NCBI GenBank assembly: GCA_013813765.1
Contig: JACCRC010000491.1
Coordinates: forward strand, 1-50,921
Length of the DNA: 50,921 nucleotides
DNA from: Deltaproteobacteria bacterium
GTDB taxonomy: Bacteria; Myxococcota_A; Polyangia; Haliangiales; Haliangiaceae
Reading direction: 5' to 3'
Positions 17,732 to 50,306 of the stretch are shown here, piece after piece; within the stretch, counting starts at the first letter, position 1; every line of letters starts with the position of its first letter. The notes under the pieces were generated by a model that saw nothing but the letters and a program-made list of their open reading frames with translations, made no database searches and was not told the DNA's origin. The position numbers and the translations under genes are program-made.

Positions 17732-20700
17732 TGTCGGCCCGGAAGTGGATCAAGCGGATCCTCCTCGGTCTCCTGCTGTTCATCGTGGTTGCTGTCGGCG
17801 TCGTGCTCGTGGTCATCCACACGAACTTCGGCCGGGAGCTCATTCGCAAGCAGGTGGAAGCTCGCCTCGACGCCATGTTCCTCGGCGGCGGTACGGTTGG
17901 AAAGATCGAAGGCAGCCCGTTCAACGAGCTGACGATCAAGGACCTCGTGATCAACGGCCCGGATGGTGCGCCGGCGATCACGGCGAAGAAGGTCAAGCTC
18001 GGCATCGGCATCCTGCCGCTGATCTCGAAGAAGGCGATCCTCAGCTCGGTCATCGTCGAGGACCTCGACGTGAGGCTCGCGCGCGATCAGGACGGCAACC
18101 TCCAGTTCGAATACCTGTTGAGGCCCACACCCGACGAGCCGGCATGGAGCGTGTCGATTCCCACGGTCGAGATCCATCGCGCGCACGTCGCGTACGACAC
18201 CGGCACCGAGTGGCTGAACTTCGACAACCTCGAGATCATCGGCGGCGCGAGCATGATGTTCGGCAGGCCGCTCACCGTGAACCTGTCGGTGCGCGGCGCG
18301 TTGCGCGAGCGTGCCGTGGGTCTCTCCCTCGATGCGGTCGTCAAGGTCGACCACAACGTGATCACCGTTCCGTCGCTGATCGCGCAGGCCGGCATCGTTG
18401 TCATCGCCGGCGTGGCGCTCCGCGTGGAGCTCCCGGTGGAGCCGACGGCGATGACCGCGCCGATGACAACGCAGCGCGTCCCGCCGCACCCCTTGATCTC
18501 CGGCACGCTGATCGTCAACGCGCCGGCGCTCGGCGTCGAGCTCCTCGTTCCGGGTACGAGGCCACCGACCGATATCGCCCTCGCGATGAACGTCGACGCG
18601 GTCGCGCCGTTCACGAAGGTGTCCTTGCTGGGGCAGCTCGGCGTCACCCCCGTCCGCGCGCTCGTCGACGTGAACCTCGGGATGAAGTCCGCGAAGGGCA
18701 TGGTCTCGTCGGGTCTGCTCGACCTGACGCTGCTCACCGGCGGGCGGATCACGGGCACCGGCGCAGGCGTCGTGCTGTTCGAGGCAGGGATGCCCGAGGA
18801 CGACGGGCTCCCGAAGGCGGCCGGCATCGCGACGGTCTGGGGCGACATCGCGGATGTCCCCGATGCCCGCGCGTCGATCGCGTTTCACACCGGCGGAGAC
18901 AAGCTCCGCACGGTGGTCAGCGCGGTCGGCAAGGGCATGAAGGCGACGGTCGAGGGTCAGATCACGATGGCCGGCGATCGGTTGAACCTCGACCGCAGCA
19001 CGATCGTCGCCTCGTCGTCCGATCCGGCGAGATCGACCAATGGCAAGGCGCCCGTGCATGGCGCGGTGTCGATGCGGTTCGCTGCGAGCGGCGTGCTCCT
19101 CCCGCAGCCGAACCTCGCGGTCTCCGGCCGGATGGATGGCCAGAGGCTGCGCTTCCAGGACCTGCAGGCCTCGAAGATGAAGCTCGCGATCGAGGCGCGT
19201 GGCTTGCCGCGGCAGCCGAGCGGGAAGGCGGAGCTCGAGCTCGACGGGATCGTGCGCGGCAACATGCACCTCGGTCAGCTCCGGGTGACCGCGGGCAGCC
19301 GCAGCGACGGTAGGATCGCGGTCTCCGCGCGTTCGAAGCCGAAGCAGAACCCATGGCTGTTCGACGTGGACGCGCTCGTCACGCCGCCCGGTCGCGGCGA
19401 GATCATCGCGATCGACCTCGTCAACCACCACATCCGCGCAGGTGCAGGCGGGGATTGGTACGGAACGACGGGGCACATCGAGATCGGGCCGCGCAAGATC
19501 ACCGTGCGCGACCTGTCGACCAAGAGCCAGGCGGGCGCGGTGTCGCTCGCCGGTCAGCTCGATCGACTCAACGGCGACTTCGCCGCGAAGGTCGACACCA
19601 CGTCCCTCACGCTCGACAACATCACTCCGCTGTACCGCGGCACGATCGACGCTCATGTCGACATCGTGCGCAAGCGCGGCCAGCTCTCAGGCACCGCCGA
19701 CGTGAAGGCCTCGGCGTTCGCGGTCGGCACGTCGATCCACACGTTCGATCTGGCCGCGAAGGTAACGGCCGGCGTCGACAAGCTGGTCGTCGACGCGAGC
19801 GCGTCGAGCGCGGACTTCGGCAGCGCGAAGATCGCGCTCGACGTCGATCCTCCAAAGGACATCACGAACGTTGACCAGTGGAAACGGCTCCACCGCAAGG
19901 TGATCCGGACCGGCCAGGTCTCGTTCGAGGGGCTGAACGTCGGCAAGCTCGCGAAGCTCGCCGGCCTCGAGGAGCAGATCCAGAGCGGCGTGGTCGACGG
20001 TGACCTGCAGTTCTCCACGGATGGCACCGACGGGACGATCCAGTTCAAGGACCTCATGGTCCCCGCGCTCAAGGGCACGGGGCTAGTCCAGGGCGAGCTC
20101 CGGATCGTGCAGACCGCGCCCGACGAGGTGCAGCCCACGCTGACCGGCCGCATCGACACGGTCGGTAACTTCGCGGTCACCGCCAAGCTCGGCATGCCCG
20201 ACCACCTGTTCGACCCGGCGGCGTGGCAGGCGCTCGGTCCGAAGGCGATGCGCGGCGCGACCGCTCGCATCGACAACGTCGCGGTCGATCCTGCGCAGCT
20301 CGAGCGGTTCGGCATCGTGACGACGATGCGCGGCTCCTTGAACGTCGCGGCCGAGATCACCGAGGCGTTCCGCAGCGTGCAGGTCGCCGTCGACGTGAGG
20401 GACCTGCGCGGCTCGCCGATCGCGCAACCGGTGCAGGCGCACTTCGCGGCAGCGTTCGACGAGAAGGGTGGCAACACCACGCTCGCGATCCGCTCCGGGA
20501 AGATCACGCTGCTCGACATGAAGGGCGCGATCCCGATGACACTCACGGAGGTGCGCAAGAATCCGAGGGGGCTCGGCGCCGCTCCGCTACACATCATGGC
20601 GACGCTGCCGCAGGCGCCTGCGCCGCAGCTGCTCGCGCTGTTCGGCCGCAGCGAGATCACCGGCGGCACGATCAGCGGCACCGTCAACATCACCGGTACG

Positions 20701-22200
20701 ATCGACAAGCCATTGGTGGTCGGGAAGATCACCGGCACGAACCTCTCGGTCCCGCCGGGGCCGAGAAACCGGCCGGTCAAGACGATCGAGTCGCTGGTCA
20801 TCGACGGGTCGTACGACGGCGTGTACGTGAAGCTGAAAGTCGATGGTGTCCAGAAGGGCGGCACGCTGAAGCTCGTCGCCGAGGCGAATCCCGACGAGCT
20901 TGGCAAGGCGACCGTGTCGATCGACGCGAAGGACTTCGACCTCGCGCCGCTGCTCGCGTTCGCACCCGGCCCGGCCGGCGGCGGCGCGGGTCGCCTCGAC
21001 GCGAAGATCCAGGTCAACGGGCTCGATCCCGGGTCGATGCGGATCGCGGGCGACTTGCATCTGGACAACGCCCGCATCCCGCTGACGCCCGAGCTCGGTA
21101 CGCTGCGACGCGCAAAGATCGACATCGCGATCGACGACCGCGTGATGAAGATCAACATGACCGGCCGGCTCGGCGGCGGTGATGTCAACCTGGTGTCGAC
21201 GTTCCAGCTCGACGGCAGCGCGATGCCCGTGAGCGGCGACGTCGCTCTCAAGCTGCGCAAGGTCTCGCCGATCGGAACGATCGAACCGGACATCACCGCC
21301 GACGTCACCGCGAAGCTGAAGCACAGCGGCGATCAGTGGTACGCCGACGTGTTCATCAAGAACGGTCAGGTCAACATCCCGAAAGGCCGCACGGACGCGC
21401 TGGATCCGATCGGCGCGCCGAACGACATGGTGTTCATGTCACCGGACGGCCACGTCATCCGCAAGCTGGAGAAGTCGGAGGGGGCCCCGCGGCACGCGTC
21501 GCTGATCGCGAACATCACGCTGTACTCGACGCACGTCATCTCCGAGGACATGCGCACGCTGATCAAGGGAAAGGTCACGGTCCGCGCCGATGCCCACAAC
21601 GTCGGCATCGTCGGCAGCATCCACGCGGATCGCGGCGACCTCGATCTGTTCGGGCGTCGCTACCGGGTCGAGCAGGCAGCCGTGCACTTCGACGGCACGA
21701 CGGATCCCTTGCTCGACATCCGGATCACGCATGACTTCTCCGAGGTCTCGACGATCACCGTTGTACGCGGCCGGCTGAGCAAGCCCGAGCTGATCATGTC
21801 GAGCGACCCGGGCATCTACTCCCAGGGCCAGCTGCTCGGCTTCCTCCTCGGCGGAGAGCCGGGCGGCGACCCCCGGAACGCTCGCGACACGGCCACCTCG
21901 GTCGGCGCCTCGTTCGTGGCGAACAGGATCGGTGGCTACGTCAAGAAGGCGCTGCCGCTCGACATCGACGTGCTGCGCTACGAGGCCGCGAGCGCCTCCA
22001 GCGGCTCCGCCGTGCTGATCGGCAAGTGGCTGACGCGGTCGCTGTTCGTCGCGTACCGGCAGCACCTCGAGGCCCGCGTCGACGAGAACCGCGTCGAGGG
22101 CGAGCTGGAGTACTGGCTGTCTCGCCGGGTGTCGGTGGAGGCCATGGCCGGCGACCGCGGCCATAACGGCGTCGACCTCCTCTGGCGCAAGCGGTACTAA
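17731..22200 (+). CDS. tamB: TamB-like translocation/assembly module protein (copy 1)
   Basis: A 1489-residue AsmA-like protein. An N-terminal membrane anchor (about 7-30) leads into a very long beta-rich periplasmic region, consistent with the hydrophobic-groove bridge structure of TamB/YhdP proteins. The C terminus carries the TamB (DUF490) domain: D-L-F-G-R-R-Y-R-V near 1307, then D-P-G-I-Y-S-Q-G-Q-L-L-G-F-L-L-G-G-E-P-G-G-D. The last residues resemble a strand that pairs with TamA. The start overlaps the tamA stop by one base, so the pair is translationally coupled. Known TamB proteins help deliver outer-membrane proteins and move phospholipid between membranes. Confidence 0.88.
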   Translation: MSARKWIKRILLGLLLFIVVAVGVVLVVIHTNFGRELIRKQVEARLDAMFLGGGTVGKIEGSPFNELTIKDLVINGPDGAPAITAKKVKLGIGILPLISKKAILSSVIVEDLDVRLARDQDGNLQFEYLLRPTPDEPAWSVSIPTVEIHRAHVAYDTGTEWLNFDNLEIIGGASMMFGRPLTVNLSVRGALRERAVGLSLDAVVKVDHNVITVPSLIAQAGIVVIAGVALRVELPVEPTAMTAPMTTQRVPPHPLISGTLIVNAPALGVELLVPGTRPPTDIALAMNVDAVAPFTKVSLLGQLGVTPVRALVDVNLGMKSAKGMVSSGLLDLTLLTGGRITGTGAGVVLFEAGMPEDDGLPKAAGIATVWGDIADVPDARASIAFHTGGDKLRTVVSAVGKGMKATVEGQITMAGDRLNLDRSTIVASSSDPARSTNGKAPVHGAVSMRFAASGVLLPQPNLAVSGRMDGQRLRFQDLQASKMKLAIEARGLPRQPSGKAELELDGIVRGNMHLGQLRVTAGSRSDGRIAVSARSKPKQNPWLFDVDALVTPPGRGEIIAIDLVNHHIRAGAGGDWYGTTGHIEIGPRKITVRDLSTKSQAGAVSLAGQLDRLNGDFAAKVDTTSLTLDNITPLYRGTIDAHVDIVRKRGQLSGTADVKASAFAVGTSIHTFDLAAKVTAGVDKLVVDASASSADFGSAKIALDVDPPKDITNVDQWKRLHRKVIRTGQVSFEGLNVGKLAKLAGLEEQIQSGVVDGDLQFSTDGTDGTIQFKDLMVPALKGTGLVQGELRIVQTAPDEVQPTLTGRIDTVGNFAVTAKLGMPDHLFDPAAWQALGPKAMRGATARIDNVAVDPAQLERFGIVTTMRGSLNVAAEITEAFRSVQVAVDVRDLRGSPIAQPVQAHFAAAFDEKGGNTTLAIRSGKITLLDMKGAIPMTLTEVRKNPRGLGAAPLHIMATLPQAPAPQLLALFGRSEITGGTISGTVNITGTIDKPLVVGKITGTNLSVPPGPRNRPVKTIESLVIDGSYDGVYVKLKVDGVQKGGTLKLVAEANPDELGKATVSIDAKDFDLAPLLAFAPGPAGGGAGRLDAKIQVNGLDPGSMRIAGDLHLDNARIPLTPELGTLRRAKIDIAIDDRVMKINMTGRLGGGDVNLVSTFQLDGSAMPVSGDVALKLRKVSPIGTIEPDITADVTAKLKHSGDQWYADVFIKNGQVNIPKGRTDALDPIGAPNDMVFMSPDGHVIRKLEKSEGAPRHASLIANITLYSTHVISEDMRTLIKGKVTVRADAHNVGIVGSIHADRGDLDLFGRRYRVEQAAVHFDGTTDPLLDIRITHDFSEVSTITVVRGRLSKPELIMSSDPGIYSQGQLLGFLLGGEPGGDPRNARDTATSVGASFVANRIGGYVKKALPLDIDVLRYEAASASSGSAVLIGKWLTRSLFVAYRQHLEARVDENRVEGELEYWLSRRVSVEAMAGDRGHNGVDLLWRKRY

Positions 22201-22224: not shown

Positions 22225-24066
22225 ATGTTCTCGAGGCTCGTAATCTGCGCGTTGCTGGCGGCCTTGCTCGGCTGCGGGACGAAGCCGCGCGTGCACAAGC
22301 CGGGCGAGGAGTGGCTCGCGTCCGTGAAGCTCGAGGGCAACGCCTCGATCGATAGCGACGACCTCGTGCCGGGGCTCGCGCTCAGGCGGACCCTCGCCGC
22401 GGGGCGGGCGCTCGACCCGTATCAGCTCACGGTAGATCGCGACCGGTTGCGCGCGGCGTACCTGAAGCGCGGCTTCTTCGAGGCGACCGTCACGCCGCGT
22501 GTCGAGCTGAAGAGCGGTGCGCAGCACGTGGTGTTCGTGATCGTCGAGGGCAAGCGTGCGCGGCTCCAGGTCGTGATCCAGGGGCTGCCGCCGGAGGTCC
22601 CCGTCGCCAAGGCGAGGAAGCTGATCCCGATCAAGGATGGTGCAGCGTTCGACTACGACGTGTATGACGCCGCGAAGCTCCCGCTGGTCTCGATGGTCGA
22701 GAACGCGGGCTACCCGCATGTGCGGATGGACGCGGCGGTGCTCGCCGACAAGGCGCGCGGGGTGGCGACGGCGCGGTTCGCGATCGAGCCCGGTGTGCGC
22801 GCTGCGTTCGGGCCGATCTCGATCGCCGGCACCGAGGGTCAGCTCGCGGATGCGATCGCGAATCGCCTCACGTTCCGGAGCGGCGACGTGTACTCCGCGG
22901 AGGCGCTCGCCGAGTCGCAGAGCTCGATCTACGAGCTGGGGCGCTTCTCGACGGTGCGGATCGAGCCCGACCGGAACGCGGGCGACACGGTCCCGGTGAA
23001 GGTCTCGGTCTCGCTCGCCAACCGTCACGAGCTCAAGCTCGGCGGCGGCCTCGGCTACGATCCGATCAACCTCGAGGTCCGCGGGCGCGCCGGCGGCTCG
23101 TACGTCAGCGCGAACTACCCACTGTGGACGTTCTCCGCGGACCTGCGTCCCGCGATCACCGTGGAGCACGACCTCAGCAACCCGCAGGAGAAGATCCGCG
23201 CGCTGGTCAGTGCACACCGGCTCGACATGTTTCGGCCGCGGATCCGCGGCGAGCTCGAGGTGTCGGCCGACTACCTCACCATCGAGGCGTACACATCGAA
23301 GGGCCCGCGGTTTCGCGCGGGTGTCAGCGCGCCCCTCGGTGCACCGTGGTTGCAGCTCCGCACCGGCTGGCTGATCGAGTACATCTTCTTCACGCAGATC
23401 GAGGTGCTCCAGCCAACGCGGGGCCAGCTCGGCCTCGACGAGAATCAGCGGCGCGGTGCTTACGAGCTCTCGCTCTCCGCCGACAAGCGGGACAACTCGC
23501 TCGAGCCGCACCGTGGCATCTACGGGCAGCTCCGCGCGACCTACGGAACGCGATACGCCGGCGGCGCGCTCGATTACATCCAGCTCACGCCCGAGCTACG
23601 CGGCTACGTGCCGCTGCCGCGCAACATCGTGCTCGCCGCACGCGCACGCGTGGGTGCGATCATCGGCAAGGTCCCGGTCACCGAGCGGTACTTCGCGGGC
23701 GGGGCGAACAGCCACCGCGGGTTCCCCGAGCGCCGCCTCGCCCCGACCGCGCCTGGCATAGATGGGCAAGTCGTGATCGGAGGCGCCGGCTCGGTCGAGA
23801 CCGGCCTCGAGCTGCGAATTCCGCTGGGCAACATCGGAGCTCCGTTCGGAACCGAGCTGTTCCTCGACGGTGGCGACGTCGTGCGGACGCCGAAAGTCCT
23901 CGATCCCACGAACCTCCACTGGGCCGTCGGGGTCGGACTGTGGGTGAAGTTCTTCGGACTCAAGCTGCGCGGTGACGTCGGGTTCCGGCTGAACCGGACC
24001 GGCACGGGCGAGCCCGGGGCCGGGGAGAATTTCGCGTACCACCTCGGCGTCGGAGATGCGTACTGA
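22225..24066 (+). CDS. tamA: TamA/BamA-like outer-membrane barrel protein with lipobox (copy 2)
   Basis: A 613-residue paralogue of the 15845 gene. It has a signal peptide ending A-L-L-G-C (Cys17), POTRA-like repeats to about residue 265, and a barrel with H-R-G-F-P-E-R-R-L and the terminus G-D-A-Y. The two copies share runs such as R-T-L-x-x-G-R-A-x-D-P-Y and G-x-L-x-D-A but differ along most of their length, so the duplication is old. GGGG just before the ATG is the likely ribosome binding site. It starts 24 bp after the first tamB and overlaps the second tamB (TGATG). Confidence 0.85.
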   Translation: MFSRLVICALLAALLGCGTKPRVHKPGEEWLASVKLEGNASIDSDDLVPGLALRRTLAAGRALDPYQLTVDRDRLRAAYLKRGFFEATVTPRVELKSGAQHVVFVIVEGKRARLQVVIQGLPPEVPVAKARKLIPIKDGAAFDYDVYDAAKLPLVSMVENAGYPHVRMDAAVLADKARGVATARFAIEPGVRAAFGPISIAGTEGQLADAIANRLTFRSGDVYSAEALAESQSSIYELGRFSTVRIEPDRNAGDTVPVKVSVSLANRHELKLGGGLGYDPINLEVRGRAGGSYVSANYPLWTFSADLRPAITVEHDLSNPQEKIRALVSAHRLDMFRPRIRGELEVSADYLTIEAYTSKGPRFRAGVSAPLGAPWLQLRTGWLIEYIFFTQIEVLQPTRGQLGLDENQRRGAYELSLSADKRDNSLEPHRGIYGQLRATYGTRYAGGALDYIQLTPELRGYVPLPRNIVLAARARVGAIIGKVPVTERYFAGGANSHRGFPERRLAPTAPGIDGQVVIGGAGSVETGLELRIPLGNIGAPFGTELFLDGGDVVRTPKVLDPTNLHWAVGVGLWVKFFGLKLRGDVGFRLNRTGTGEPGAGENFAYHLGVGDAY

Positions 24067-27000
24067 TGCGGCGCACGTGGCGATGGATCCGGCGAATCGT
24101 CGTCGGGCTCCTCGCGACCGTGATCGTCGCGGTCGCGGTGGTGCTCATCCTGCTGCACACCGCGTGGGGGCGGAACTTTCTGCGCGGCCGGATCGAGGCC
24201 GCATTGCAGGCGCCGTTCCCCGGCTCGTCGATCGGCTCGCTGAGCGGCAGCGTGCTCGGCACGGTCACGCTGCACGACATCTCGCTCGTCGCGGCCGATG
24301 GACATCCGATCGCGACGGTCGACGCGCTCGACGTCGATCTCGCGCTGCTGCCTCTGTTCGGCCGGACCGCACGCATCGAGCACCTGGTGGCCACCGGCGT
24401 GACGGTGCACGCGCACCCGGCGCCACCGCCACGCGACGATGGGAAGCCACCGCCGGCGTGGACGGTGGAGATCGTGAACGCGGAGATCCACGACGCCACC
24501 GTGATCGACGAGCACGACGGCGTCACGCTGAGCAATGTCGACGTCTCGGCCTCCGCTCGCATCGACGTGCGCGGTCCGATCATCGCGATCGCAACGCTCG
24601 GAGGAGACTGGAAGGGCCGCCCGTTCGGTGGCCTGGCGAGCCTCACGATCCGTCGAGACCTCGCCTTCGACGTGGGCGCCGGCTTCCCGAAACCGCAGTT
24701 CCGCGATGTCGCGGGCTTCGTGGCCGCCGGTAGCGGCGGCGCGTCACTCGTCGGAAGCCTGGGCTCGATGGAGGCGCGCACGGGCTCATTGGTCGCGCGC
24801 CTGCCGGCGTCGGATGTCCTGCGGCTCCCACTCGAGGGGCGCGTGGGCGGGGATGCGATCGTGTTGGTGTCGGCCGACGGGGATCGACTCAGCGCGACCG
24901 TCACGATCGGCGGCACGCGTGTCGATTCGGTCGCGATCATCGACGTCCAGAAGCAATCCGTGCGTGGTGTCCTGGCGACCAACGAGGTCGACTTGGGAGT
25001 TGCGACGGGCCAGCGAGTCAGCGGCAGGGGGCGCGTCATGATCGCCGGCGTGCTCGAGCGGGATCGAGTGCGCGCGACGGTACTGACGTCGGGTGCGATT
25101 CCGAACTATCCGGCAGGCGATTCGCTGATCGCGATCGATGCACCGCTGGACCGCTCGCAGAGCGGAATCGAGATGTTCAGCGGCGGCGACGTCATGCTGT
25201 TTTCTCGCGGCGAAGGCGAGCTGCTGCTCTCTGCCGTGGGCTCCGTGAAGCGTGTCGAGAGGACGTTCCTCGTCGAGAGAGCGCATGTTGGTATCGCGAT
25301 CGGCGATCCGGTCGCGGCGAGCGGTGGGCGCGCTCCGGTGCGCGGCACGTTCACCGCGGAGGTCTCCGCGAGCGGGCCGCTCACGGCGCTCGTGCTGCAG
25401 GGCAACGTGCGCGGTACGCGACTCAGCTTCGAGCGGGCCAGCGCGCGTGCACTGACCGGCACGTTCCGCGTCACGATCGACAAGGTCCCGATGTACACGG
25501 CGCACGTCGCGCTCGACGGCGTCGTCAACGCCGGCAAACCGATCGGGTCGGTAGTCGCCGACGCGCGCAACCGCGCAAATGGAAGTATCGAGATCCGCGC
25601 GCGTGCACGCTCGGCCACGATGCCGGTCACGGCCACGATCAGTGGCGTCGTCACTCCGGGCGCGACGACGACCGACGCCGTGCTCGGATCACACAGCTTC
25701 GAGACCCCGGCGGGGGTGTGGGCAGGCACTGGTGGGCGCGTGCGCATCGGGAAGCGAGACATCGTCGTCACCGGCATCCGGACCACGCAGGGCGAGGCGT
25801 GGGCGAAGGTCGGCGCCACGGTCGGTCGCGGAACCGGCGCCCTCGCCGCGGACATCGAGGCGCATGCGCTGCCGCTGCGCGCGATCGATCCGGCGTACTC
25901 GGGCACGGTCAGCGGTGCGCTGACGCTCGCGCGCAAGCGCGGACGCTGGTCTGGCAGCGGCATGCTGAGCGGGCAGGGCGTCGTCGTGTCGCCCGAGGCT
26001 CCGCCGGTCGATGCCGGCATCACGCTCGGCGTCGACGGGCGGCGGGTGGCGATCGCGATCAACGCCTCGAACGCCGAGCTCGGCGGCGCACGCGTCGCGA
26101 TCGAGGTGGACAGTCCCGTGGATCTGCTGGACGTGCCGGCGTGGATGCGCGTCGCGCGAAGCGACCTGCACGCCGTGGTGATCGGCGTGGACCACGTCGA
26201 CCTCGCCGCCGTCAGCAAGGGCAAGACCACGGGCTTCCTCGACGGCACCCTCGAGATCCGTGAGGGCGTTCCGAGCGGGACGCTGTCCGTGCGCGGGGTG
26301 CCGACGCCTCTTGGCCAGGCCGACGCGGACATGACGCTGTCGCTCACCGATGTCGGGTTTGTCGATGCGACCGCGAAGGCGACCGTCGGCACCGTCGGTG
26401 CCGCCACGCTCGGCGCGCGGATCGCGATCCCGGATCGCATCTTCGATCCCGCGGCTTGGAAGGCGCTCGGCACGCGCGTCGTCGATCGCGCGATCGCCGA
26501 GGCGAAGGACATCGCGATCGGCCCGGAGCTGTTCGCCGCGCTGAAGATCGATGCGCCGTACCGCGGTAAAGCGAGCATCAAGGTCGACGTCGGCGCGGGC
26601 GGAAGCTCGGCGACGGTCGGCGTCGACGTGCACGGAGTGACCGGTGGGGCGATCGTCCGCGGCGTCGACGCCCATCTTCAGGCGACCGTCGACTCGAGCG
26701 GGACCCGCGCAGAGCTGGGGATCGCGGAAGGCGGTGTCGTCCTCGCGTCGCTGCCGGATGCACGAACGCCGGTGACGCTCGCCGGCTGGATCGCCGATCC
26801 ACGCGCGGCAATCGCGGCTCCGGTGTCGGGCACGCTGTCGATCGGCAAGCTCGATGTCGCGCGCGTGCTCGCGATCGTGGGTCGCACCGATGTTCGCGCG
26901 GGCACGATCGCTGGCGCGGTCACGGTCGGCGGTACGATCGGAAGGCCGACGGCGAAAGGCTCGCTGGAGCTCCAGAACGTACAGGTCGCCCCGCGGTACT

Positions 27001-28433
27001 CGGCCAAGACACCGCCCGAGCTGACCGCGCTCCATATCGATGCGAGCTGGGACGGCGCGGCGGGGCAGATCAAGGTCAAGGGTGACGAGGCGGGGAAGGG
27101 AACGCTCGAGGTCGAGGTGCGAGGGCGCCCGGATGATCTGATGTCGGTGGTCGCTCGCGTCGACATCAAGAAGTTCGATGTCGCGCCGATCGTCGTGTTC
27201 CTCCCGGGCCGGCTCGCCGGTGCGAGCGGTCGCGTCGAGGCGGACCTCACGTTCACCGGCATCGATCCCGTGAACGGCAAGGTCCGCGGCTCGCTCGAGC
27301 TCATCGAGGCGCGCGTTCCGATCACACCGACGATCGGCACGCTGCGCAGGGCGAACGCGAAGCTCGAGCTGCGCGACGACGGCATCACCGCGAAGCTCGA
27401 CGGCCGGCTCGGCGCGGGCGCGGTGAAGCTGACGGCAACGTCGGATTCCGGCGGGCTGGACACGATCGTCGACGCGACGCTTTCGAAGATCTCGCCGATC
27501 GGCGCGCTGCAGCCGATCATCAGCTCCACGCTGCACGCGACGCTGCGCCGCGACGGCTTCGTGTGGACCGGCAAGGCTACGGTCTCGCGGACGTCGGTCG
27601 TGATGCCGGCGCAGGGCGGGAACGCACTGCTCGATGCCGATGCACCACCGGATCTGATCTTCGTCGACCTTCCGATCCCGCGCATCCCGATCGCGCCCGG
27701 CGCGCCCGAGAACCCATTCCTGATCGTCGCGGTGGACATCCGGCCGGTCGAGATCCGCGTGCCCGAGTTTGCGGTCGATGCGGTTGCCGCCGGCCGGGTC
27801 ACGCTGAAGGTCGGTGAAACCGTCGGTCTCGACGGCCAGATCTTCGTCGAGCGCGGCAGTGCGGATCTCTTCGGCCACCGCTACCGCGTGGAGCTCGGCC
27901 AGGTCATGTTCGACGGCACGCTCAACGGCATCCTCGACCTCAAGCTGGCGCACGACTTCCCCGACGTCACGACCTTCGTGCGGTTCTCCGGCCGGCTCAA
28001 CGAGCTAGCGAACCGAGAGCCGGAGTTCACGAGCTCGCCCGGCATCTACACACCGGGCCAGCTGCTCGGGTTCTTCCTCGGAGGCGAGCCCGGCGGCGAT
28101 CCGTCGAAGCAGACGCGCGAGGCCGCGGCCGGATTCGGCGCATCGTTCGCGTCGAGCGCGATCGGCAAGCGGCTGAAGAAGTACCTCCCGCTGAACCTCG
28201 ACGTGTTGCGCTGCGACCCGGGCGCGGGCACGAGTGGGGCGAGCTGCACGCTCGGCAAGTGGCTCACGCACAAGGTGTTCCTCTCGTACAAGCAGCGTCT
28301 CGAGTCGCGCTACGACCAGAACACCGGCGAGGGCTCGTTCGAGTGGCACTTCAAGCCGAGCTGGGTGCTCGAGGTGACCGGCGGCGATCGCAACTACTGG
28401 GGCACCGACGCGCTGTGGCGCCGACGCTGGTGA
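24066..28433 (+). CDS. tamB: TamB-like translocation/assembly module protein (copy 2)
   Basis: A 1455-residue paralogue of the 17731 gene. It has a membrane anchor (about 10-31), a long AsmA-like beta-rich body, and the DUF490 C-terminal domain with D-L-F-G-H-R-Y-R-V and S-P-G-I-Y-T-P-G-Q-L-L-G-F-F-L-G-G-E-P-G-G-D. Like copy 1 it ends in a W/Y-rich segment with G-D-R. The first base of its ATG is the last base of the tamA stop. The tail differs from copy 1 by two Cys (R-C-D-P-G and S-C-T-L) that could form a disulfide. It closes the 12.6-kb tamA-tamB-tamA-tamB block; the next gene is convergent, 5 bp away. Confidence 0.88.
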   Translation: MRRTWRWIRRIVVGLLATVIVAVAVVLILLHTAWGRNFLRGRIEAALQAPFPGSSIGSLSGSVLGTVTLHDISLVAADGHPIATVDALDVDLALLPLFGRTARIEHLVATGVTVHAHPAPPPRDDGKPPPAWTVEIVNAEIHDATVIDEHDGVTLSNVDVSASARIDVRGPIIAIATLGGDWKGRPFGGLASLTIRRDLAFDVGAGFPKPQFRDVAGFVAAGSGGASLVGSLGSMEARTGSLVARLPASDVLRLPLEGRVGGDAIVLVSADGDRLSATVTIGGTRVDSVAIIDVQKQSVRGVLATNEVDLGVATGQRVSGRGRVMIAGVLERDRVRATVLTSGAIPNYPAGDSLIAIDAPLDRSQSGIEMFSGGDVMLFSRGEGELLLSAVGSVKRVERTFLVERAHVGIAIGDPVAASGGRAPVRGTFTAEVSASGPLTALVLQGNVRGTRLSFERASARALTGTFRVTIDKVPMYTAHVALDGVVNAGKPIGSVVADARNRANGSIEIRARARSATMPVTATISGVVTPGATTTDAVLGSHSFETPAGVWAGTGGRVRIGKRDIVVTGIRTTQGEAWAKVGATVGRGTGALAADIEAHALPLRAIDPAYSGTVSGALTLARKRGRWSGSGMLSGQGVVVSPEAPPVDAGITLGVDGRRVAIAINASNAELGGARVAIEVDSPVDLLDVPAWMRVARSDLHAVVIGVDHVDLAAVSKGKTTGFLDGTLEIREGVPSGTLSVRGVPTPLGQADADMTLSLTDVGFVDATAKATVGTVGAATLGARIAIPDRIFDPAAWKALGTRVVDRAIAEAKDIAIGPELFAALKIDAPYRGKASIKVDVGAGGSSATVGVDVHGVTGGAIVRGVDAHLQATVDSSGTRAELGIAEGGVVLASLPDARTPVTLAGWIADPRAAIAAPVSGTLSIGKLDVARVLAIVGRTDVRAGTIAGAVTVGGTIGRPTAKGSLELQNVQVAPRYSAKTPPELTALHIDASWDGAAGQIKVKGDEAGKGTLEVEVRGRPDDLMSVVARVDIKKFDVAPIVVFLPGRLAGASGRVEADLTFTGIDPVNGKVRGSLELIEARVPITPTIGTLRRANAKLELRDDGITAKLDGRLGAGAVKLTATSDSGGLDTIVDATLSKISPIGALQPIISSTLHATLRRDGFVWTGKATVSRTSVVMPAQGGNALLDADAPPDLIFVDLPIPRIPIAPGAPENPFLIVAVDIRPVEIRVPEFAVDAVAAGRVTLKVGETVGLDGQIFVERGSADLFGHRYRVELGQVMFDGTLNGILDLKLAHDFPDVTTFVRFSGRLNELANREPEFTSSPGIYTPGQLLGFFLGGEPGGDPSKQTREAAAGFGASFASSAIGKRLKKYLPLNLDVLRCDPGAGTSGASCTLGKWLTHKVFLSYKQRLESRYDQNTGEGSFEWHFKPSWVLEVTGGDRNYWGTDALWRRRW

Positions 28434-30227: not shown

Positions 30228-32975
30228 GTGCGGGTGACACGGCTCTGTTGGGCGCTCGTCCTCGCGACTGCGACGGCATCCGCGCAGCCGACGGAAGGCG
30301 AGGAGACGCCCGTGGAGCCGCCCGCCGAGCCGGCTCCTGCACCGCCGGCGGCGACGACCGGCACGATCAGCGGCACCGTCGAGTCGCCGGATCTCGATGC
30401 ACCGCTCGCCGGCGCGACGGTCACCGTCGTGGGAACGAAGCTGTCGACGCTCACCGATGACGAGGGCAAGTACGAGCTCGCAGTGCCGCCGGGCACCTTC
30501 AAGCTGAAGGTGGAGCTCCAGGGCTTCACGCCCGACCTCCGGAACGTGATCGTGACGCTCGGCGAGACCACGAAGGTCAACGTCCCGTTGACCACGATCC
30601 CGCTCATGAACGAGACGATCGTCGTGGTCGGCTCGCGCACGCCGCGCACGAACGTCGACTCACCGGTGCCCGTGGACGTGGTGACGTCCGAGGAGATCGC
30701 GCGCAGCGGCCGCACCGAGACCGGCCGCGTCCTCCACACGCTCGCGCCGTCGTTCATCTCGACGCCGCAGACGATCGCCGACGGCACCGACCACGTCGAC
30801 CCGGCGAGCCTGCGCGGGCTCGGACCGGATCAGGTCTTGATCCTGATCAACGGCAAGCGCCGCCATCGCAGTGCGCTGTTGCACCTCAACGGTACCTTCG
30901 GCCGCGGCACCGTCGGCACGGACCTCAACGCGATCCCGTCGGGCTCGATCAAGCGGATCGAGATCCTGCGCGATGGCGCCGGCTCGCAGTACGGCTCCGA
31001 CGCGATCGCCGGCGTGATCAACATCGTCACGAAGGACATCACCGATCTCGTCGATGTCTCCACCACGACCGGCATCACCGCACGGCGCGACGGTGCGCAG
31101 CTGAAGACGTCCGCGAACTACGGCTTCAAGGTCGGGCAGAAGGGGTTCGTCAACGTCACTGGCGAGTTCCTCCAGCGCCAGGCGACGAACCGCGCGGGGA
31201 CGTACACGGGCACGGTCTACAGCGACGACCGCACGATCGACGACCAGATGCTCGCGGCGAATCAGCTGACTCGCGAGGACTTCCAGATGAAGATCGGCGA
31301 GGCATCGGTCACCGCCGGCATGGGGCAGTACAACCTGATGCTGCCGGTCTCCGACGTCGCGCAGTTCTACAGCTTCGGCGACGTCTCGCACCGCCGCGGC
31401 GCTGCAGCGGGGTTCTACCGGTTCCCGAAGCAGACCTCGCAGAACGTCGCCGAGTTCTATCCCAACGGTTTTCTCCCCGAGATCCGACCGACGATCGACG
31501 ACAGCGCGTTCACGATCGGTCTGCGCCGCAAGGGCAAGTGGACCGTCGACGCGAGCCTGACGCATGGCACGAGCGCGTTCCAGTTCGATATCGAGAACTC
31601 GGTCAACGCATCCCTTGGCACCGCGAGCCCGACGACCTTCGATGCGGGCACGCTGCGCTCGACCCAGAGCGTCGCGAACCTCGATCTCCTCCACAAGCTC
31701 GAGCTGAAGGAGGTCAAGTCGGTCTCGTTCGTGCTCGGTAGCGAGCTGCGGATCGAGAACTACCAGATCCACGCGGGCGACGAGGCGAGCTACACGCTTG
31801 GCGGCGCGACGTTTGGTACCCCGCCGCAGCCGAAGCTCCCCGGTGCGCAGGTGTTCCCCGGCTATCAGCCGAGCAACGAGGTCGATCGCACGCGCGATTC
31901 GATCGGCGTCTACACCGGTCTCGAGAGCGAGCTGAACAAGGTCTTCGCGCTCGACATCGGCGGCCGGTTCGAGAACTACTCCGACTTCGGCCGCTCGTTG
32001 ATCGGCAAGATCGCCACGCGCGCGAAGCTCGGCGGCGGCCTGTCGCTGCGCGGCGCCGCGGGCACTGGCTTCCGCGCGCCGTCGCTGCAGCAGCTGTGGT
32101 TCTCGAACGTCTCGACGCTGTTCCTCCCCGACGCGACCGGGCAGCTGCAGCCGGCGCAGGTGCTCACGAGCAACAACGAGAGCCCGGTGACGAAGGCGTT
32201 CGGCATCCCGAAGCTGCGCGAGGAGCGCTCGATCAACTTCTCGGGCGGTCTGTCGTTTCGGCCGACGGAGAACCTCCTCATCACCACGGACGGCTACTTC
32301 ATCCGGCTGCGCGATCGGATCGTGCTGACGAGTCAGTTCACGAACGCGAACAGCGTCGTTCGCGACATCCTCGCTCCGTTTCCCGGCGTCAGCCAGGCAC
32401 AGTTCTTCGCGAACGCTGTCGATACCGATACCCGCGGCGTCGATGTCGTCATCGATTACTCGCACGAGGTGGGCGACGGCACGCTGGCGCTCACCGCGTC
32501 CGCGAACTTCACGACCACGCAGGTGAAGCAGGTGAACATCCCGCGCTCGCTCGAGCAGCGGTTCGGCGCGAATCCGGACCAGCTGAAGACGTTCTTCTTC
32601 GGCCGCCTCGCGACGAACCGTCTCGAGGACTCGGTGCCACATCAGAAGGGGACCGCCGCGGTGCGCTACTCGCTCGCCGGTCTGTCGGCGCTCGTGCGCG
32701 CGAACTACTACGGCCGCGTTCGTTATCGCGCCGACGATCCCGCCGCCGACGAGGTCTTCGGCGCGAAGGTCCTGTTCGACGTCGACGTCGGCTACCAGAT
32801 CACGAAGAACGTGCTGTTCTCGATCGGCGCCGACAACGTGCTGAACACGTATCCGGACCCGGTGGAGAAGGACGTCAACTCGAGCTTCGGCCGCTTCGTC
32901 TACAGCCGGAACGTCAGCCAGTTTGGTGAGAATGGTGGTTTCTATTACGTAAAGCTGGGCCTGACGCTATTCTGA
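30228..32975 (+). CDS. TonB-dependent outer-membrane receptor with carboxypeptidase-regulatory-like N-terminal domain
   Basis: A 915-residue outer-membrane protein. A short signal peptide (cleavage after A-S-A near 18-20) is followed by an acidic Pro-rich linker and a CarboxypepD_reg-like beta domain at about 43-120. A TonB-box-like E-T-I-V-V-V-G follows near 128-134. The plug (V-V-T-S-E-E-I-A-R-S-G, L-R-G-L-G-P-D-Q-V-L-I-L-I-N-G-K-R) covers about 140-280. The barrel ends in the classic aromatic terminus L-G-L-T-L-F. Such receptors import siderophores, vitamins or glycans using force from TonB. The substrate cannot be named. The next gene, 12 bp on, encodes a kinase that ends in a TonB C-terminal domain. 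Confidence 0.9.
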   Translation: MRVTRLCWALVLATATASAQPTEGEETPVEPPAEPAPAPPAATTGTISGTVESPDLDAPLAGATVTVVGTKLSTLTDDEGKYELAVPPGTFKLKVELQGFTPDLRNVIVTLGETTKVNVPLTTIPLMNETIVVVGSRTPRTNVDSPVPVDVVTSEEIARSGRTETGRVLHTLAPSFISTPQTIADGTDHVDPASLRGLGPDQVLILINGKRRHRSALLHLNGTFGRGTVGTDLNAIPSGSIKRIEILRDGAGSQYGSDAIAGVINIVTKDITDLVDVSTTTGITARRDGAQLKTSANYGFKVGQKGFVNVTGEFLQRQATNRAGTYTGTVYSDDRTIDDQMLAANQLTREDFQMKIGEASVTAGMGQYNLMLPVSDVAQFYSFGDVSHRRGAAAGFYRFPKQTSQNVAEFYPNGFLPEIRPTIDDSAFTIGLRRKGKWTVDASLTHGTSAFQFDIENSVNASLGTASPTTFDAGTLRSTQSVANLDLLHKLELKEVKSVSFVLGSELRIENYQIHAGDEASYTLGGATFGTPPQPKLPGAQVFPGYQPSNEVDRTRDSIGVYTGLESELNKVFALDIGGRFENYSDFGRSLIGKIATRAKLGGGLSLRGAAGTGFRAPSLQQLWFSNVSTLFLPDATGQLQPAQVLTSNNESPVTKAFGIPKLREERSINFSGGLSFRPTENLLITTDGYFIRLRDRIVLTSQFTNANSVVRDILAPFPGVSQAQFFANAVDTDTRGVDVVIDYSHEVGDGTLALTASANFTTTQVKQVNIPRSLEQRFGANPDQLKTFFFGRLATNRLEDSVPHQKGTAAVRYSLAGLSALVRANYYGRVRYRADDPAADEVFGAKVLFDVDVGYQITKNVLFSIGADNVLNTYPDPVEKDVNSSFGRFVYSRNVSQFGENGGFYYVKLGLTLF

Positions 32976-32987
32976 GCGAGCGCGTTC

Positions 32988-35177
32988 ATGCCCGCTGCTC
33001 CTGATCACAAGCCGAGCGATGTGTTCGGCCCGTACGAGCTCTACGAGAGGCTCGGGCTCGGCGGCATGGCGACCGTCCATCGCGCGAAGAAGCACGGCAT
33101 CGAAGGCTTCGAGCGAAGCGTCGCGCTGAAGCGCATGCTCTCGCACCTCGCGGAGGATCACTCGTTCGTGGAGTCGTTCATCCGCGAGGCGAAGGTCGCA
33201 TCGCTGTTGCAGCACCCGAACATCGCGCAGGTCTACGACTTCGGGCGGATCAACGGCGTCTACTACATCGCCATGGAGCTGGTGAGCGGCTTTGATGTCC
33301 GCAAGCTCCTCCGCTACGCGAACCGGGCGAATGAATCGATCCCGCTGCCGGTCGTGCTGTCGATCCTCGGCGAGCTGTGCGACGCGCTCGAGTACGCACA
33401 CGGCTTTGTCGACGAGCACGGCACGCAGCTCAACATCGTCCACCGCGACATCTCGCCATCGAACCTGATCGTCGCTCACACCGGGCACCTGAAGATCATC
33501 GACTTCGGCATCGCGAAGGCGTCGAGCCACCAGCTCCACACCGAGAGCGGGCTCGTGAAGGGCAAGCTCGGCTACATGTCTCCCGAGGCTGCACTCGGGA
33601 TGCAGCTCACGCCGGTCGCCGACATCTTCTCCGTCGGAGTCGTCGCGTGGGAGCTGGTCACCGCGTCGCCGCTGTTCTCGTCGCGCACCGACTTCGAGAC
33701 GATGCGCCGGATCCGCGAGGCGGACATCGTGCCGCCGTCGCGCAACAACCCGGCGTGCCCGCCGGATCTCGATCGGGTGATCCTGAACGCGCTCGAACGC
33801 GATCCCGCGCGGCGGTTACCGTCGGCGCACGCGTTCCGTACCGCACTCGACAACATCGCGCTGCGCGCCGGCGTGCAGGCCTCCGCGCGCAGTGTCGCGG
33901 AGTGGTGCGCGCAGTACACGCAGCCAAGCGATTCGTGGGCCGGCTCGTCGCATCCGTCGGGACGCAAGCTTCCGCTGCCGCCCGCCGCAGAGCCCCCAAC
34001 GGAGATGCGCAGGCAGCACACGCGCAGCTCGTCGCGGCTCAAGCGCTCGACCGCGGACATCGCGCTCGCGAACGCGATCTGGGGCGACGAGATCGCGACC
34101 TCCGCTGCGATGGCGCCGCTGCCCGACTTCAGTCACGAGGCGCAGACCGGGACGCCGAGCGTGCAGCAACCGGCTGTGCCACCGCGGTCGTCGCAGCCGA
34201 CGGTCGCGATACCCAAAGGGACGACGCCGACGCGGCCCCCGCCGATCGTCGAGTACTCGCCGCCGGTGCCGGTGGCAATGCCGTCGCGGGTCGAGCCGAA
34301 GTCGCGCCGCACGCCGATCGCGCTCCTGACGGCGCTCGCGCTCGTCGCGGCGGGCCTCGCGACGTATCTGATCCTCGCGCGGAAGTCCGAGCCCGCTTCC
34401 ACGCCGCCGGTGACGACCGCGACAATCACGTTCGAGATCGTTCCCGCCGGCGCCGTGGTCTCCGCAGGTGACAAGGAGCTCGGCCGCGTGTCACCGCTCG
34501 TCGTCGAGCTTCCCGATGGCGTGCACTCGGTCTCTGCAAGGCACGAGGGGCACCGCAACTGGGCCGGCTCGGTGTCCGTACGCGCCGGCGAGCCACAGCA
34601 GATCAAGATCGCGCTCGACAAGGAGCGCGAGCCCGAGCCAATCGCGGTCGCGACACCACCGCCGATCGAGCCGACGCCACAGATCAAGCCGCCGCCGCCG
34701 AAGGCGAACCCGCCGCCGCAGATCAAGACGTCGCCGAAGAAGGGCAATGCGAAGAATCTGCCGGAACCGAAGCGCATCGAGCCCGAGCCGCCGCCGGTGG
34801 AGACACCCGTCGTGACGAAGGTCGAGCCTCCAAAGGTCGAGCCGCCGAAAGTGGAGCCTCCGAAGGTCGAGCCGCCGAAGCCGCCCGCGCGCACGCCGGT
34901 CGTGGCCGCAACCGCGGTGCAGAAGCTCTCCGGCGAGGTCCCGACGATCCGCGCGAAGGGTGAAGCGTCGAATGGCGACGTGCTCGTGAAGGTGTGCATC
35001 GACGAGCGCGGCAGCGTGACGTCGGTGAAGATCGTGCGCTCGACGGCGGATGTCGCCGGCGAGCTTCAAGCCGCGCTCGGCACGTGGCGCTACAAGCCCT
35101 ACCTGAACGCACAGCAACAGCCGTCTCCGGTGTGCTTCGCGCTGAACCTGCGTCTCGTGTTCAAGCGCGCGGACTGA
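32988..35177 (+). CDS. Membrane Ser/Thr protein kinase fused to PEGA-like and TonB C-terminal domains
   Basis: A 729-residue protein in one frame. The cytoplasmic Hanks kinase domain spans about 14-285: Gly loop L-G-L-G-G-M-A-T-V (22-30), Lys48, Glu67, H-R-D at 152-154 with Asn159, D-F-G at 172-174 and M-S-P-E. The usual HRDxK Lys is Ser, common in myxobacterial kinases. A linker of 150 residues leads to one membrane segment at about 443-463. Outside are a PEGA-like beta domain (about 478-545), a Pro/Lys-rich rod (548-640) with four VEPPK repeats, and a TonB_C-like domain (about 645-729; G-S-V-T-S-V-K-I-V-R-S, W-R-Y-K-P-Y). It starts 12 bp after the TonB receptor, so the pair is probably co-transcribed. 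Confidence 0.85.
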   Translation: MPAAPDHKPSDVFGPYELYERLGLGGMATVHRAKKHGIEGFERSVALKRMLSHLAEDHSFVESFIREAKVASLLQHPNIAQVYDFGRINGVYYIAMELVSGFDVRKLLRYANRANESIPLPVVLSILGELCDALEYAHGFVDEHGTQLNIVHRDISPSNLIVAHTGHLKIIDFGIAKASSHQLHTESGLVKGKLGYMSPEAALGMQLTPVADIFSVGVVAWELVTASPLFSSRTDFETMRRIREADIVPPSRNNPACPPDLDRVILNALERDPARRLPSAHAFRTALDNIALRAGVQASARSVAEWCAQYTQPSDSWAGSSHPSGRKLPLPPAAEPPTEMRRQHTRSSSRLKRSTADIALANAIWGDEIATSAAMAPLPDFSHEAQTGTPSVQQPAVPPRSSQPTVAIPKGTTPTRPPPIVEYSPPVPVAMPSRVEPKSRRTPIALLTALALVAAGLATYLILARKSEPASTPPVTTATITFEIVPAGAVVSAGDKELGRVSPLVVELPDGVHSVSARHEGHRNWAGSVSVRAGEPQQIKIALDKEREPEPIAVATPPPIEPTPQIKPPPPKANPPPQIKTSPKKGNAKNLPEPKRIEPEPPPVETPVVTKVEPPKVEPPKVEPPKVEPPKPPARTPVVAATAVQKLSGEVPTIRAKGEASNGDVLVKVCIDERGSVTSVKIVRSTADVAGELQAALGTWRYKPYLNAQQQPSPVCFALNLRLVFKRAD
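34821..34880 (+). repeat. Four tandem 15-bp repeats encoding V-E-P-P-K
   Basis: Four adjacent near-identical 15-bp units lie in the Pro-rich segment of the kinase-TonB gene. They differ only at synonymous third positions, so selection has kept the protein repeat. It resembles the stiff X-Pro spacer that lets TonB span the periplasm. Confidence 0.85.
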
Positions 35178-43753: not shown

Positions 43754-44395
43754 ATGCCGCGTTTCACATTCCCTGAATGGACCGAGACACTCAAGAAGTG
43801 GATCAGCCTCCTGGTCATGGGAGCACCAGTCTACCTGGTCGCTCTTGTCGCCTACGGCGTGACCCCCGAAGCTATCCGGATCGGCTACCAACCGGACCAG
43901 CCCGTCCCGTATAGCCACGCGCTACACGCCGGCGAGCTCGGCATGGACTGCCGCTACTGCCACTCCACCGTGGAGCGCGCAGCTGAGGCGGCGATTCCTC
44001 CGGCGAGCGTCTGCATGAACTGCCACGCGACGGTGAAGCGCGAGTCCGACGCGCTGCAGCCGATCCGCGCGGCGTACGCGGAGAACCAGCCGGTGCGCTG
44101 GACGCGCGTCAACGACGTGCCGGACTACGTGTACTTCGACCACTCGGCGCACGTGAACGCGACCATCGGTTGCGAGTCGTGCCACGGCCGCGTCGATCAG
44201 ATGGTCAAGGTCTTCCAGGCCAAGTCCCTGACGATGGAGTGGTGTCTCGACTGCCACCGCAACCCGGAGCCGCACCTGCGCAAGCACGAAGCGCTCACGG
44301 CGATGGGCTACGAGCCCGGCAAGGACGAAGGCGCCGCTGTCTTGAAGGCGAACAACGTCAACCCGCCCACCAACTGCTCGACCTGCCACCGCTAG
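43754..44395 (+). CDS. actA: Alternative complex III subunit ActA, pentaheme cytochrome c
   Basis: A 213-residue protein with an N-terminal membrane segment (about 17-36) and five C-x-x-C-H heme sites beginning at Cys66, 87, 140, 164 and 208, the number expected for ActA. It belongs to the membrane-bound quinol:electron acceptor oxidoreductase that replaces the cytochrome bc1 complex in many bacteria, and it carries electrons on the periplasmic side. AGGA lies 6 nt before the ATG. It is the first gene of a tight operon, with actB starting 9 bp later. Confidence 0.93.
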   Translation: MPRFTFPEWTETLKKWISLLVMGAPVYLVALVAYGVTPEAIRIGYQPDQPVPYSHALHAGELGMDCRYCHSTVERAAEAAIPPASVCMNCHATVKRESDALQPIRAAYAENQPVRWTRVNDVPDYVYFDHSAHVNATIGCESCHGRVDQMVKVFQAKSLTMEWCLDCHRNPEPHLRKHEALTAMGYEPGKDEGAAVLKANNVNPPTNCSTCHR

Positions 44396-44404
44396 GAGTC
44401 AAGG

Positions 44405-47400
44405 ATGTCCGCCAAAGAACCTGACCACGCCCACGACGACCACGATCACCACCACCACGGTCACGATGACCATGACGAGGTGATCCAGCCGATCGCTCCC
44501 ACGGAGCACGGCTACTGGCGCTCGCTCAAGGAGCTCGAGGGGAAGGCGAGCTATCAGCTCGATCCCGTCGCTGCTCGCAACGAGTTCGCGACCGCACCGG
44601 ACCGGACGATCGATCCGATGCACCGCCGAAGCTTCTTCCAGCTGATGGGCGCATCGATGGCGCTCGCCGGCGTCGGCGCCTGCCGCTACGAGAAGGAAGA
44701 GATCGTGCCGCTGGCGCGCCGTCCCGAGGACCAGGTCCCGGGTCAGACGCAGCAGTACTCGACGGCGTTCGACCTCGGCGGCGTCGGTCACGCGCTCGTG
44801 GCCACGACGTTTGAAGGTCGCCCGATCCACCTCGACGGTAACCCGGAGCACCCGTTCGCCTCGGGCGGCGCGGTTCCTGGCACGGTCCGTCACGCGGGCG
44901 TCACCACGTTCGCGCAGGCCTCCATCCTCCACTGCTACGATCCGGATCGCTCGCAGAACCCGATGAACGCGGGCAAGGGCGCGTCGATGGAGGCGTTCAA
45001 GAACGCGCTCCCCGAGATCCGCAAGAACCTCGCGGGCACGCGCGTCCTCGCCGAGGCCTCGTCCTCGCCGACGCTCGCGGCGCTCCGCGATCGCCTCGTG
45101 CAGATGAACCCGGGCCTGGTCTGGCACGAGTACGAGCCGATCAGCTGGGACAACGAGCGCGAGGGTACGCGCAAGGCGTTCGGTCAGCCGATGCGCGCGA
45201 TCGCGCGGCTCGACAAGTGCGAGACGATCGTCACGATCGATTGCGACCTGTTCGTCGAGCACCCGGCTGCGATGAAGTACAGCCGCGACTACGCGCGCAG
45301 CCGTCGCATGAACGGCTCGCTCGGCATCGGCAAGATGAACCGGCTGTGGTCGGTCGAGAGCACGTTCTCGAACACCGGCGCGATGGCGGATCACCGCCTC
45401 GGCCTGCGCTCGGAGCTCGGCCTTCCGCTCGCGATGGCGCTCGACGCCGCGCTCGGCGGCGGTGGTACGCCCCCCGCGGAGTTCCTCAAGGAGAAGAAGG
45501 TCGCCGAGTTCGTGAAGGTGCTCGCCGACGAGCTCCGCGCGAACCGCGGCAAGGCGGTCGTCGTCGCCGGTCGCCGGCAGTCGCCCGACGTCCACGCGGT
45601 CGTCGCGAAGATCAACGCGGCGATCGGCGCGCCCGGCGCGACGCTGGACTACTACTTCGCGCCCGACGCGAACCGCCGCCCGCATGTCGAGTCGATCAAG
45701 GAGCTGACGGCCGCGCTCGCCGGCGGCCGCGTGCAGCAGCTGATCATCCTCGGCGGCAACCCGGTCTATGACGCGCCGGCGGACCTCGACTTCGCCGCAG
45801 CGCTCGCGCAGGCGAAGACGTCGATCCACCTGCACGAGTACCAGAACGAGACCTCGCTCAAGTCGACCTGGCACGTGCCGAAGTCGCACTTCCTCGAGGC
45901 GTGGGGCGATGCCCGCACCTGGGACGGCACGATCACGATCGCGCAGCCGCTGATCGCCCCGCTCTACGGCGGGCTCTCGTCGATCGAGCTCGTCGGCATG
46001 CTGCTCGGCGAGGCGAAGGTCGGCGACGCACTGATCCAGGAAGCGCACGCCGCGCTCGGCGTCACCGCGTCCTGGCGCCAGAGCGTGCACGACGGCTTCG
46101 TCCCGAACACCGCACTGCCGGCGGCGACGAACCTCGCGGCGAACGCCGGCGCACCGCAGCTCTCGCAGAGCCAGCTCGGCTCGACGAAGCGCGCGCAGGG
46201 CGACGTCGAGGTCGTGTTCGCGGTCTCGCCGTTCTCGTACGACGGTCGCTTCGCGAACAACGCGTGGCTCCAGGAGACGCCGGACTTCCTCACGAAGGTC
46301 ACCTGGGACAACTACGCACTCGTCGGACCCGAGACGGCCGCCGCGCTGAAGCTCGAGAACGACACGATGATCCGCGTGAAGATCGAGGGTCGCTCGATCG
46401 AGGTGCCTTGCCACACCATCCCCGGTCAGGCGCGCTACTCGATTGGCCTTGTCCTCGGCGGCGGTCGCACGGCCGCGGGCCGCGTCGGCGGCACGGCTGA
46501 CCGCACGGTCGGCTTCGACACGAACAAGGTCCGCACGACCGCCGGCTTCGACATCGCGCTCAAGGCGACGGTCGAGCCCGTCGGCAGGAAGTTCGAGCTC
46601 GCGAGCGTGCAGGAGCACTGGGACATCCGGGCCGGCATCGTTCCGTCGGTCAATAGCGAGGGCCTGCAGCAGCGCCTGCCCGAGCTGATCCGCGAGGTCA
46701 CGGGCAAGACGCTCGCCGAGAACAAGCAGTACGTCGCCGAGAAGCCCGACACGTTCTTCACGGATCCGCGCCGCGCTTCCAACACCGACCTGCCGACCCG
46801 CCAGGGCGGTCAGTCGCTGTTCAAGGAGCACGACTACCTCGGTCACCGCTGGGGCATGACGATCGATCTCAACACCTGCACGGGCTGCAACTCGTGCATG
46901 GTGGCCTGCCAGTCGGAGAACAACGTTCCGGTGGTCGGCAAGCAGGAGGTCAAGAACAACCGCGAGATGCACTGGATCCGCATCGACCGCTACTTCAAGG
47001 GCGGTCCCGAGGAGCCGGAGGTCGTGCATCAGCCCATCGCCTGCCAGCATTGCGAGCTGGCGCCGTGCGAGCAGGTCTGCCCGGTCGGTGCCACTACGCA
47101 CTCCGACGAAGGCCTGAACGACATGGCCTACAACCGCTGCATCGGCACGCGGTACTGCGCGAACAACTGCCCGTACAAGGTCCGCAAGTTCAACTTCCTC
47201 GACTGGAACAAGGAGTGGCGCGACGCGCGGAATCGCGTTCGCCAGCTCCTGTTCAACCCGGACGTCACCGTGCGCATGCGCGGCGTGATGGAGAAGTGCA
47301 CGTTCTGCGTGCAGCGGATTCAGAACGGCAAGATCCGGGCGAAGGCGCAGGTCCGCAGCGGGATGCGTCCCGGCACCGTGCTCGGCGCGATTCCCGACGG

Positions 47401-47628
47401 TGAGATCCAGACGGCATGCCAGGACGCCTGCCCGACCGAGGCGATCACGTTCGGCGACCTGTCGGATACGACGAGCCGCGTCGCGAAGCTGTTCGACGAC
47501 AACCGGGCGTACTCGCTGCTGCCCGAGCTCTACACCAAGCCGCGCAACCGGTTCCTGTCCCGCGTGCGCAACCCGAACCCGGCGATGCCATCGGCCGCCA
47601 GCGCCGCTTCCAAGGAAGGGCATCACTG

Positions 47629-47629: not shown

Positions 47630-49029
<1,400 letters not shown>

Positions 49030-49037
49030 AGGACGTC

Positions 49038-50294: not shown

Positions 50295-50306
50295 GCGGAA
50301 GGACTT

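Follow-up and report, generated by a model that had tools for sequence, protein, structure and literature searches.

What does a Ser/Thr kinase that ends in a TonB-like domain do directly downstream of the gene for a TonB-dependent receptor? We addressed this question in a contig of 50,921 nucleotides (hereafter, the window) from a member of the Haliangiaceae, in which both genes lie on the forward strand. The number of kinases, the genome size, and an AgmX-type domain suggest a myxobacterial (Myxococcota) origin. The receptor gene (30228 to 32975) encodes 915 amino acids, starts with a stretch resembling an N-terminal signal peptide, and has orthologs in eight other genomes of the genus. The kinase gene (32988 to 35177) encodes 729 amino acids between an ATG at 32988 and a stop at 35177. 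An earlier note on this DNA placed the kinase gene 12 bp after the receptor gene, which is correct: the receptor stop codon ends at 32975, and the spacer occupies 32976 to 32987. According to Pfam, the direct neighbors of the pair are a chorismate mutase/prephenate dehydratase gene and a quinone oxidoreductase-like gene. Elsewhere in the window, two tandem TamB-like genes (17731 to 22197 and 24066 to 28430) share 31% identity and have another gene between them (22225 to 24063), and the genes from 43754 to 50921, which run off the contig end, look by eye like an alternative complex III/quinol oxidoreductase operon.

The window receptor has the Plug domain, barrel, and TonB box that characterize TonB-dependent receptors. 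Pfam matches were obtained to Plug (3.3e-18; 30654 to 31016) and TonB_dep_Rec_b-barrel (4e-30; residues 397 to 871, 31416 to 32840). The TonB box, ETIVVVG (residues 129 to 135; 30612 to 30632), is conserved in all eight receptors that we aligned, with E129, V132, V133, V134, and G135 invariant. The N terminus carries a CarboxypepD_reg-like extension (residues 46 to 122, 30363 to 30593; PF13620, 3e-16), and the Pfam scan found no STN signaling domain on the receptor. As cited in PMC12204202, Pollet 2021 implicated an extension of this type in TonB contact in Bacteroides. Relatives of the window receptor are mostly Bacteroidota receptors with 34 to 52% identity and no common neighbor gene, and a similar kinase was found at 0 of 80 loci of these relatives. 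The best PDB matches, the colicin I and enterobactin receptors, cover only the plug region. Neither the relatives, nor their neighbor genes, nor the PDB matches allowed us to infer a substrate.

Pfam, AF2, and Foldseek bear out the earlier description of the 729-residue frame as an intact Hanks kinase with one membrane helix, a PEGA domain, and a TonB C-terminal domain. The kinase domain (residues 16 to 282, 33033 to 33833; Pfam Pkinase, 2.9e-37) has intact VALK, HRD, DFG, and PE motifs, and K48, H152-R153-D154, and D172-F173-G174 are invariant in an alignment with 20 relatives. Judged by its catalytic Lys, HRD, and DFG residues, the protein is predicted to be a Hanks-type Ser/Thr kinase. The full-length model contains the kinase (residues 11 to 308), one helix (444 to 466), a PEGA beta fold (477 to 542, pLDDT about 91), a disordered linker (549 to 640), and TonB_C (646 to 723). 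The helix is seen in both the sequence and the model (34317 to 34385), and it contains neither a His nor an SxxxH motif. Pfam places the PEGA domain at residues 480 to 546 (34425 to 34625; 1.5e-6), and the linker (34632 to 34907) contains VEPPK repeats, has a proline fraction of 0.33, and is modeled mostly with pLDDT <50. The TonB C-terminal domain (residues 646 to 729, 34923 to 35174) has an SGxxP motif and conserved cysteines at positions 670 and 716. This arrangement suggests a cytoplasmic catalytic domain and a periplasmic TonB end.

A TonB C-terminal domain is predicted for the C terminus of the kinase by the sequence profile, the structure model, and Foldseek alike. The Pfam TonB_C match at residues 655 to 712 scored 22.6 bits in the protein scan, just under the cutoff of 24.6 bits, and the same site scored 26.4 bits in the genome-wide search, above the cutoff. 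Structure prediction, which the earlier note had proposed as a check, gave a TonB_C model: AF2 applied to residues 615 to 729 with 37 relatives yielded a mean pLDDT of 85.9, with strands and helix arranged in the order seen in TonB. When this domain was compared to the PDB with Foldseek, ranks 1 to 17 were all TonB C-terminal domains, the best match being TonB bound to FoxA (6i97_D), and a profile search with the kinase TonB domain matched E. coli TonB (1xx3) at 2.2e-8. The Pfam cutoff is a poor judge in this lineage and undercounts TonB domains, because it entirely misses a TonB encoded by a TonB-ExbB-ExbD-ExbD operon in the same genome. That canonical cluster (L193, G000:C37, 5042 to 12522) also includes a large CarboxypepD_reg receptor.

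We searched 95 genomes for the TonB domain, recovering close relatives from within the genus as well as weaker ones from the family, and then called genes on 40 fetched stretches. The close kinases, here referred to as group A (the window plus L055 to L062), come from nine genomes. In all nine genomes that have the orthologous receptor, among the 16 genomes of the genus, a group A kinase lies directly 3′ of it, the kind of neighborhood link for which the earlier note had proposed a search; the other seven genomes have neither the receptor nor a group A kinase. No other genome of the family was found to have the receptor. In each of the nine pairs, 3 to 35 bp separate the receptor stop from the closest start codon plausible for the kinase; in one pair (G012), the receptor is split across two contigs (L056, L198). 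Group A kinases are 45 to 72% identical overall to the window kinase, indicating that the genomes represent distinct species. The genes flanking the pair (PheA and quinone oxidoreductase) are common to the window and G003 only and differ in the other seven genomes, and no conserved third gene was found beside the pair in the nine loci. Because the flanking genes change while the pair stays, the receptor and the kinase are maintained as one unit.

Distances among the kinases correlate with those among the receptors (Pearson r of 0.89), although codivergence of this kind is also expected from simple coinheritance. Co-occurrence and adjacency are not independent lines of evidence, since the gain or loss of one locus as a unit gives both. 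In addition to its pair, G015 has a second, diverged receptor (48% identity; contig C20, L197, 10784 to 13612) and a second group A kinase (contig C223, L073, 3342 to 5432; the sequence includes a run of N), which are on different contigs and are not paired. Within the group A kinases, the membrane helix and the TonB domain are separated by 137 to 265 residues, which include a proline-rich spacer predicted to span the periplasm. The VEPPK-repeat rod of the earlier note survives as a proline-rich linker, but the repeat itself is not conserved; we dropped it as a specific element because proline richness alone is conserved. The genome of the window also has a second receptor near a PEGA kinase (L185, G000:C90, 5691 to 12027), with a 309-amino-acid gene lacking a Pfam match between them. 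We rejected contig C90 as a second receptor-kinase neighborhood because the intervening gene is unrelated and the PEGA kinase has no TonB_C.

TonB proteins contact their motor via an SxxxH motif in the membrane helix (SHLS motif, PMC12204202). Neither this motif nor any His is present in the membrane helices of 24 of 24 kinases. In other TonB proteins encoded by the genome of the window, an S or T lies four residues before the helix His ([S/T]xxxH), most clearly in L194, L195, and L196. No ExbB or ExbD homolog was found in the stretches fetched for the nine pair loci, and true TonBs at L085, L086, and L091 are linked to ExbB-ExbD. With the motor motif missing and no ExbB/ExbD nearby, the kinase is probably not powered in the way that TonB is. 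On two defining properties, the motor motif and the linkage to ExbB-ExbD, it does not qualify as a TonB energy transducer.

The same TonB domain is found in a second set of kinases, group B, which are longer (mostly 760 to 1,150 amino acids) and occur across the family and in the genome of the window. Most of them lie between threonine dehydrogenase/glycine C-acetyltransferase/BolA-like genes and small-lipoprotein genes, names that come from sequence recognition rather than a profile scan. No receptor was found beside a group B kinase among the fetched loci. The paralog in the same genome (L067, G000:C445, 7129 to 10071, reverse strand) is a 981-amino-acid kinase in which the same TonB domain is combined with two PEGA domains; it adjoins genes resembling BolA, glycine C-acetyltransferase, and threonine dehydrogenase, a neighborhood that recurs across the family. 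Given these unrelated neighbors, the domain is not tied to a neighboring receptor in general. A tree of the kinase domains places group B on one side, with one or two changes required for group A, and the fusion of kinase and TonB domain is likely older than the partnership with the receptor. In another family of the class, a kinase of a different subtype (HRDLKP; L230, 8895 to 10529, G036:C23) has no PEGA domain and matches TonB_C weakly at its C terminus (E value of 0.006). It has no evident receptor-like neighbor among the called genes, and it looks like a separate TonB_C fusion.

We favor the reading that the motorless TonB domain of the kinase reads the state of the partner receptor and passes it to the cytoplasmic kinase domain, and we give this a probability of roughly 55%. 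It is favored because the kinase has no motor motif, retains a domain of the type that pairs with TonB boxes, and neighbors a receptor with a conserved TonB box. The receptor would sit in the outer membrane; the kinase would be an inner-membrane protein whose catalytic domain is cytoplasmic. The PEGA domain and the proline-rich rod would span the periplasm and bring the TonB C-terminal domain, a predicted fold that pairs with TonB boxes, minus the ExbB-ExbD coupling motif, to the periplasmic face of the receptor. Binding of substrate would expose the TonB box of the receptor, and the TonB domain of the kinase would engage it. This engagement would alter the clustering or conformation of the kinase and in this way control its activity, leading to phosphorylation of a presumed downstream target in the cytoplasm. 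Transport would still be powered by a canonical TonB encoded elsewhere in the genome. There is a precedent for ligand-dependent binding: an isolated TonB C-terminal domain binds FoxA with 17-fold higher affinity when ligand is present, and ferrichrome increases the affinity of TonB for FhuA (PMC11658791). By analogy, a motorless TonB domain could in principle read occupancy. That the pair represents a new class of transmembrane signaling, in which a Ser/Thr kinase uses a motorless TonB domain of its own to read the TonB box on a dedicated outer-membrane receptor and so reports occupancy directly to a cytoplasmic phosphorylation network, without involving an anti-sigma factor or an STN domain, is more tentative, and we put it at slightly worse than even odds.

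Several other explanations compete with this reading. The group B neighborhoods count against it, as a TonB domain beside unrelated genes may bind something else, and so do the unpaired extra receptor and kinase in G015. The TonB domain might instead be a general envelope-binding module, with peptidoglycan, lipoproteins, or any receptor as its ligand, that anchors a periplasm-spanning kinase or senses the state of the envelope, in which case the neighboring receptor would reflect shared expression only. We consider this rather unlikely. Group B kinases carry the same domain across the family without a receptor neighbor, and the G036 kinase, from another family, has a weak TonB_C match and no evident receptor-like neighbor among the called genes; however, a general module leaves unexplained why group A kinases lie within 3 to 35 bp of one particular receptor in nine genomes with differing surroundings. 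The same persistence, at 45 to 72% kinase identity while the flanks change, makes it extremely improbable that the two genes are neighbors by an accident of genome organization and have no joint function, even though some such neighbors are expected in a genome where approximately 150 matches to kinases and 12 to the Plug domain were found. The receptor-kinase circuit proposed in the earlier note is partly supported. Neither of the outcomes that the note had named as refuting it was observed: the C terminus models as TonB_C, and the true orthologs are linked to a receptor gene in all nine genomes that have one. The paralogs with TonB domains beside kbl/BolA-type genes narrow the wider claim.

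Two further alternatives give the kinase a role in transport. It could compete with or regulate transport if its TonB domain blocks the TonB box against canonical TonB until phosphorylation or a change in disulfide state frees it. A canonical TonB fold without a motor motif, two conserved cysteines in that fold, and a kinase gene in an operon with the receptor are all compatible with such a role, yet the kinase domain is across the inner membrane, there is no known route by which it would control a distal periplasmic domain, and no data favor competition over sensing; we regard it as quite improbable. We consider it very improbable that the kinase acts as an energy transducer in its own right, working on an ExbB-ExbD-type motor and reporting force to its kinase domain. 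The putative TonB-like membrane orientation and the TonB_C domain would suit that role, but His and SxxxH occur in 0 of 24 membrane helices, and ExbB/ExbD genes occur near 0 of 9 pairs in the fetched stretches. The same two observations weaken the force-reading and energy-transfer versions of the circuit that the earlier note had raised.

The occupancy-sensor reading, in which the kinase monitors its partner receptor, can be set against known systems. Like TonB energy transducers (PF03544/TIGR01352), the window protein has a C-terminal TonB fold, as predicted, a proline-rich periplasmic spacer, and one membrane helix; unlike them, it has a Hanks kinase in place of the short N terminus, a PEGA domain, no SxxxH motif, and no ExbB-ExbD linkage. 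The layout of FecA-FecR-FecI is similar in that a TonB-dependent receptor is in an operon with an inner-membrane signaling protein that reaches across the periplasm (PMC9249621), a reach that would apply here as well. In our case, however, the partner is a kinase with a TonB-type domain rather than an anti-sigma factor, the receptor has CarboxypepD_reg and no STN domain, and no anti-sigma or ECF sigma factor genes are among the receptor's direct neighbors. Membrane Ser/Thr kinases of the PknB type, which carry PASTA or other outer sensor domains, share the cytoplasmic Hanks kinase, juxtamembrane stretch, single helix, and extracytoplasmic sensor, whereas here the sensor region consists of PEGA and TonB_C and an outer-membrane receptor is co-encoded. 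Oar, a receptor of Myxococcus xanthus, also has a TonB box and a CarboxypepD_reg extension at its N terminus (PMC6434023), but it is linked to TonB-ExbB-ExbD genes and required for protease secretion, and its Ton(oar) system includes no kinase. In MxcH-type receptors (NF038079), a TonB_C domain is likewise dedicated to one receptor and has no motor of its own, although there it is fused to the receptor itself and not to a kinase. Among the genomes searched, L218 (G246:C269) has a TonB_C-like domain at the N terminus of a protein resembling a TonB-dependent receptor, as in MxcH. Within the open-access PMC literature, which makes for a weak negative, we found neither a kinase-TonB fusion nor a receptor-kinase pair of this kind.

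If the favored reading is true, outer-membrane receptors would have a second signaling principle beside FecA-FecR, with the TonB box as the readout and protein phosphorylation as the output. It would also assign a defined input to one orphan kinase among the roughly 150 in a genome like this and would mean that TonB domains, when freed of the motor, can be reused as sensors. The nine orthologous receptor-kinase pairs, set against the paralogous kinases without receptors, offer a clean test set for these ideas.
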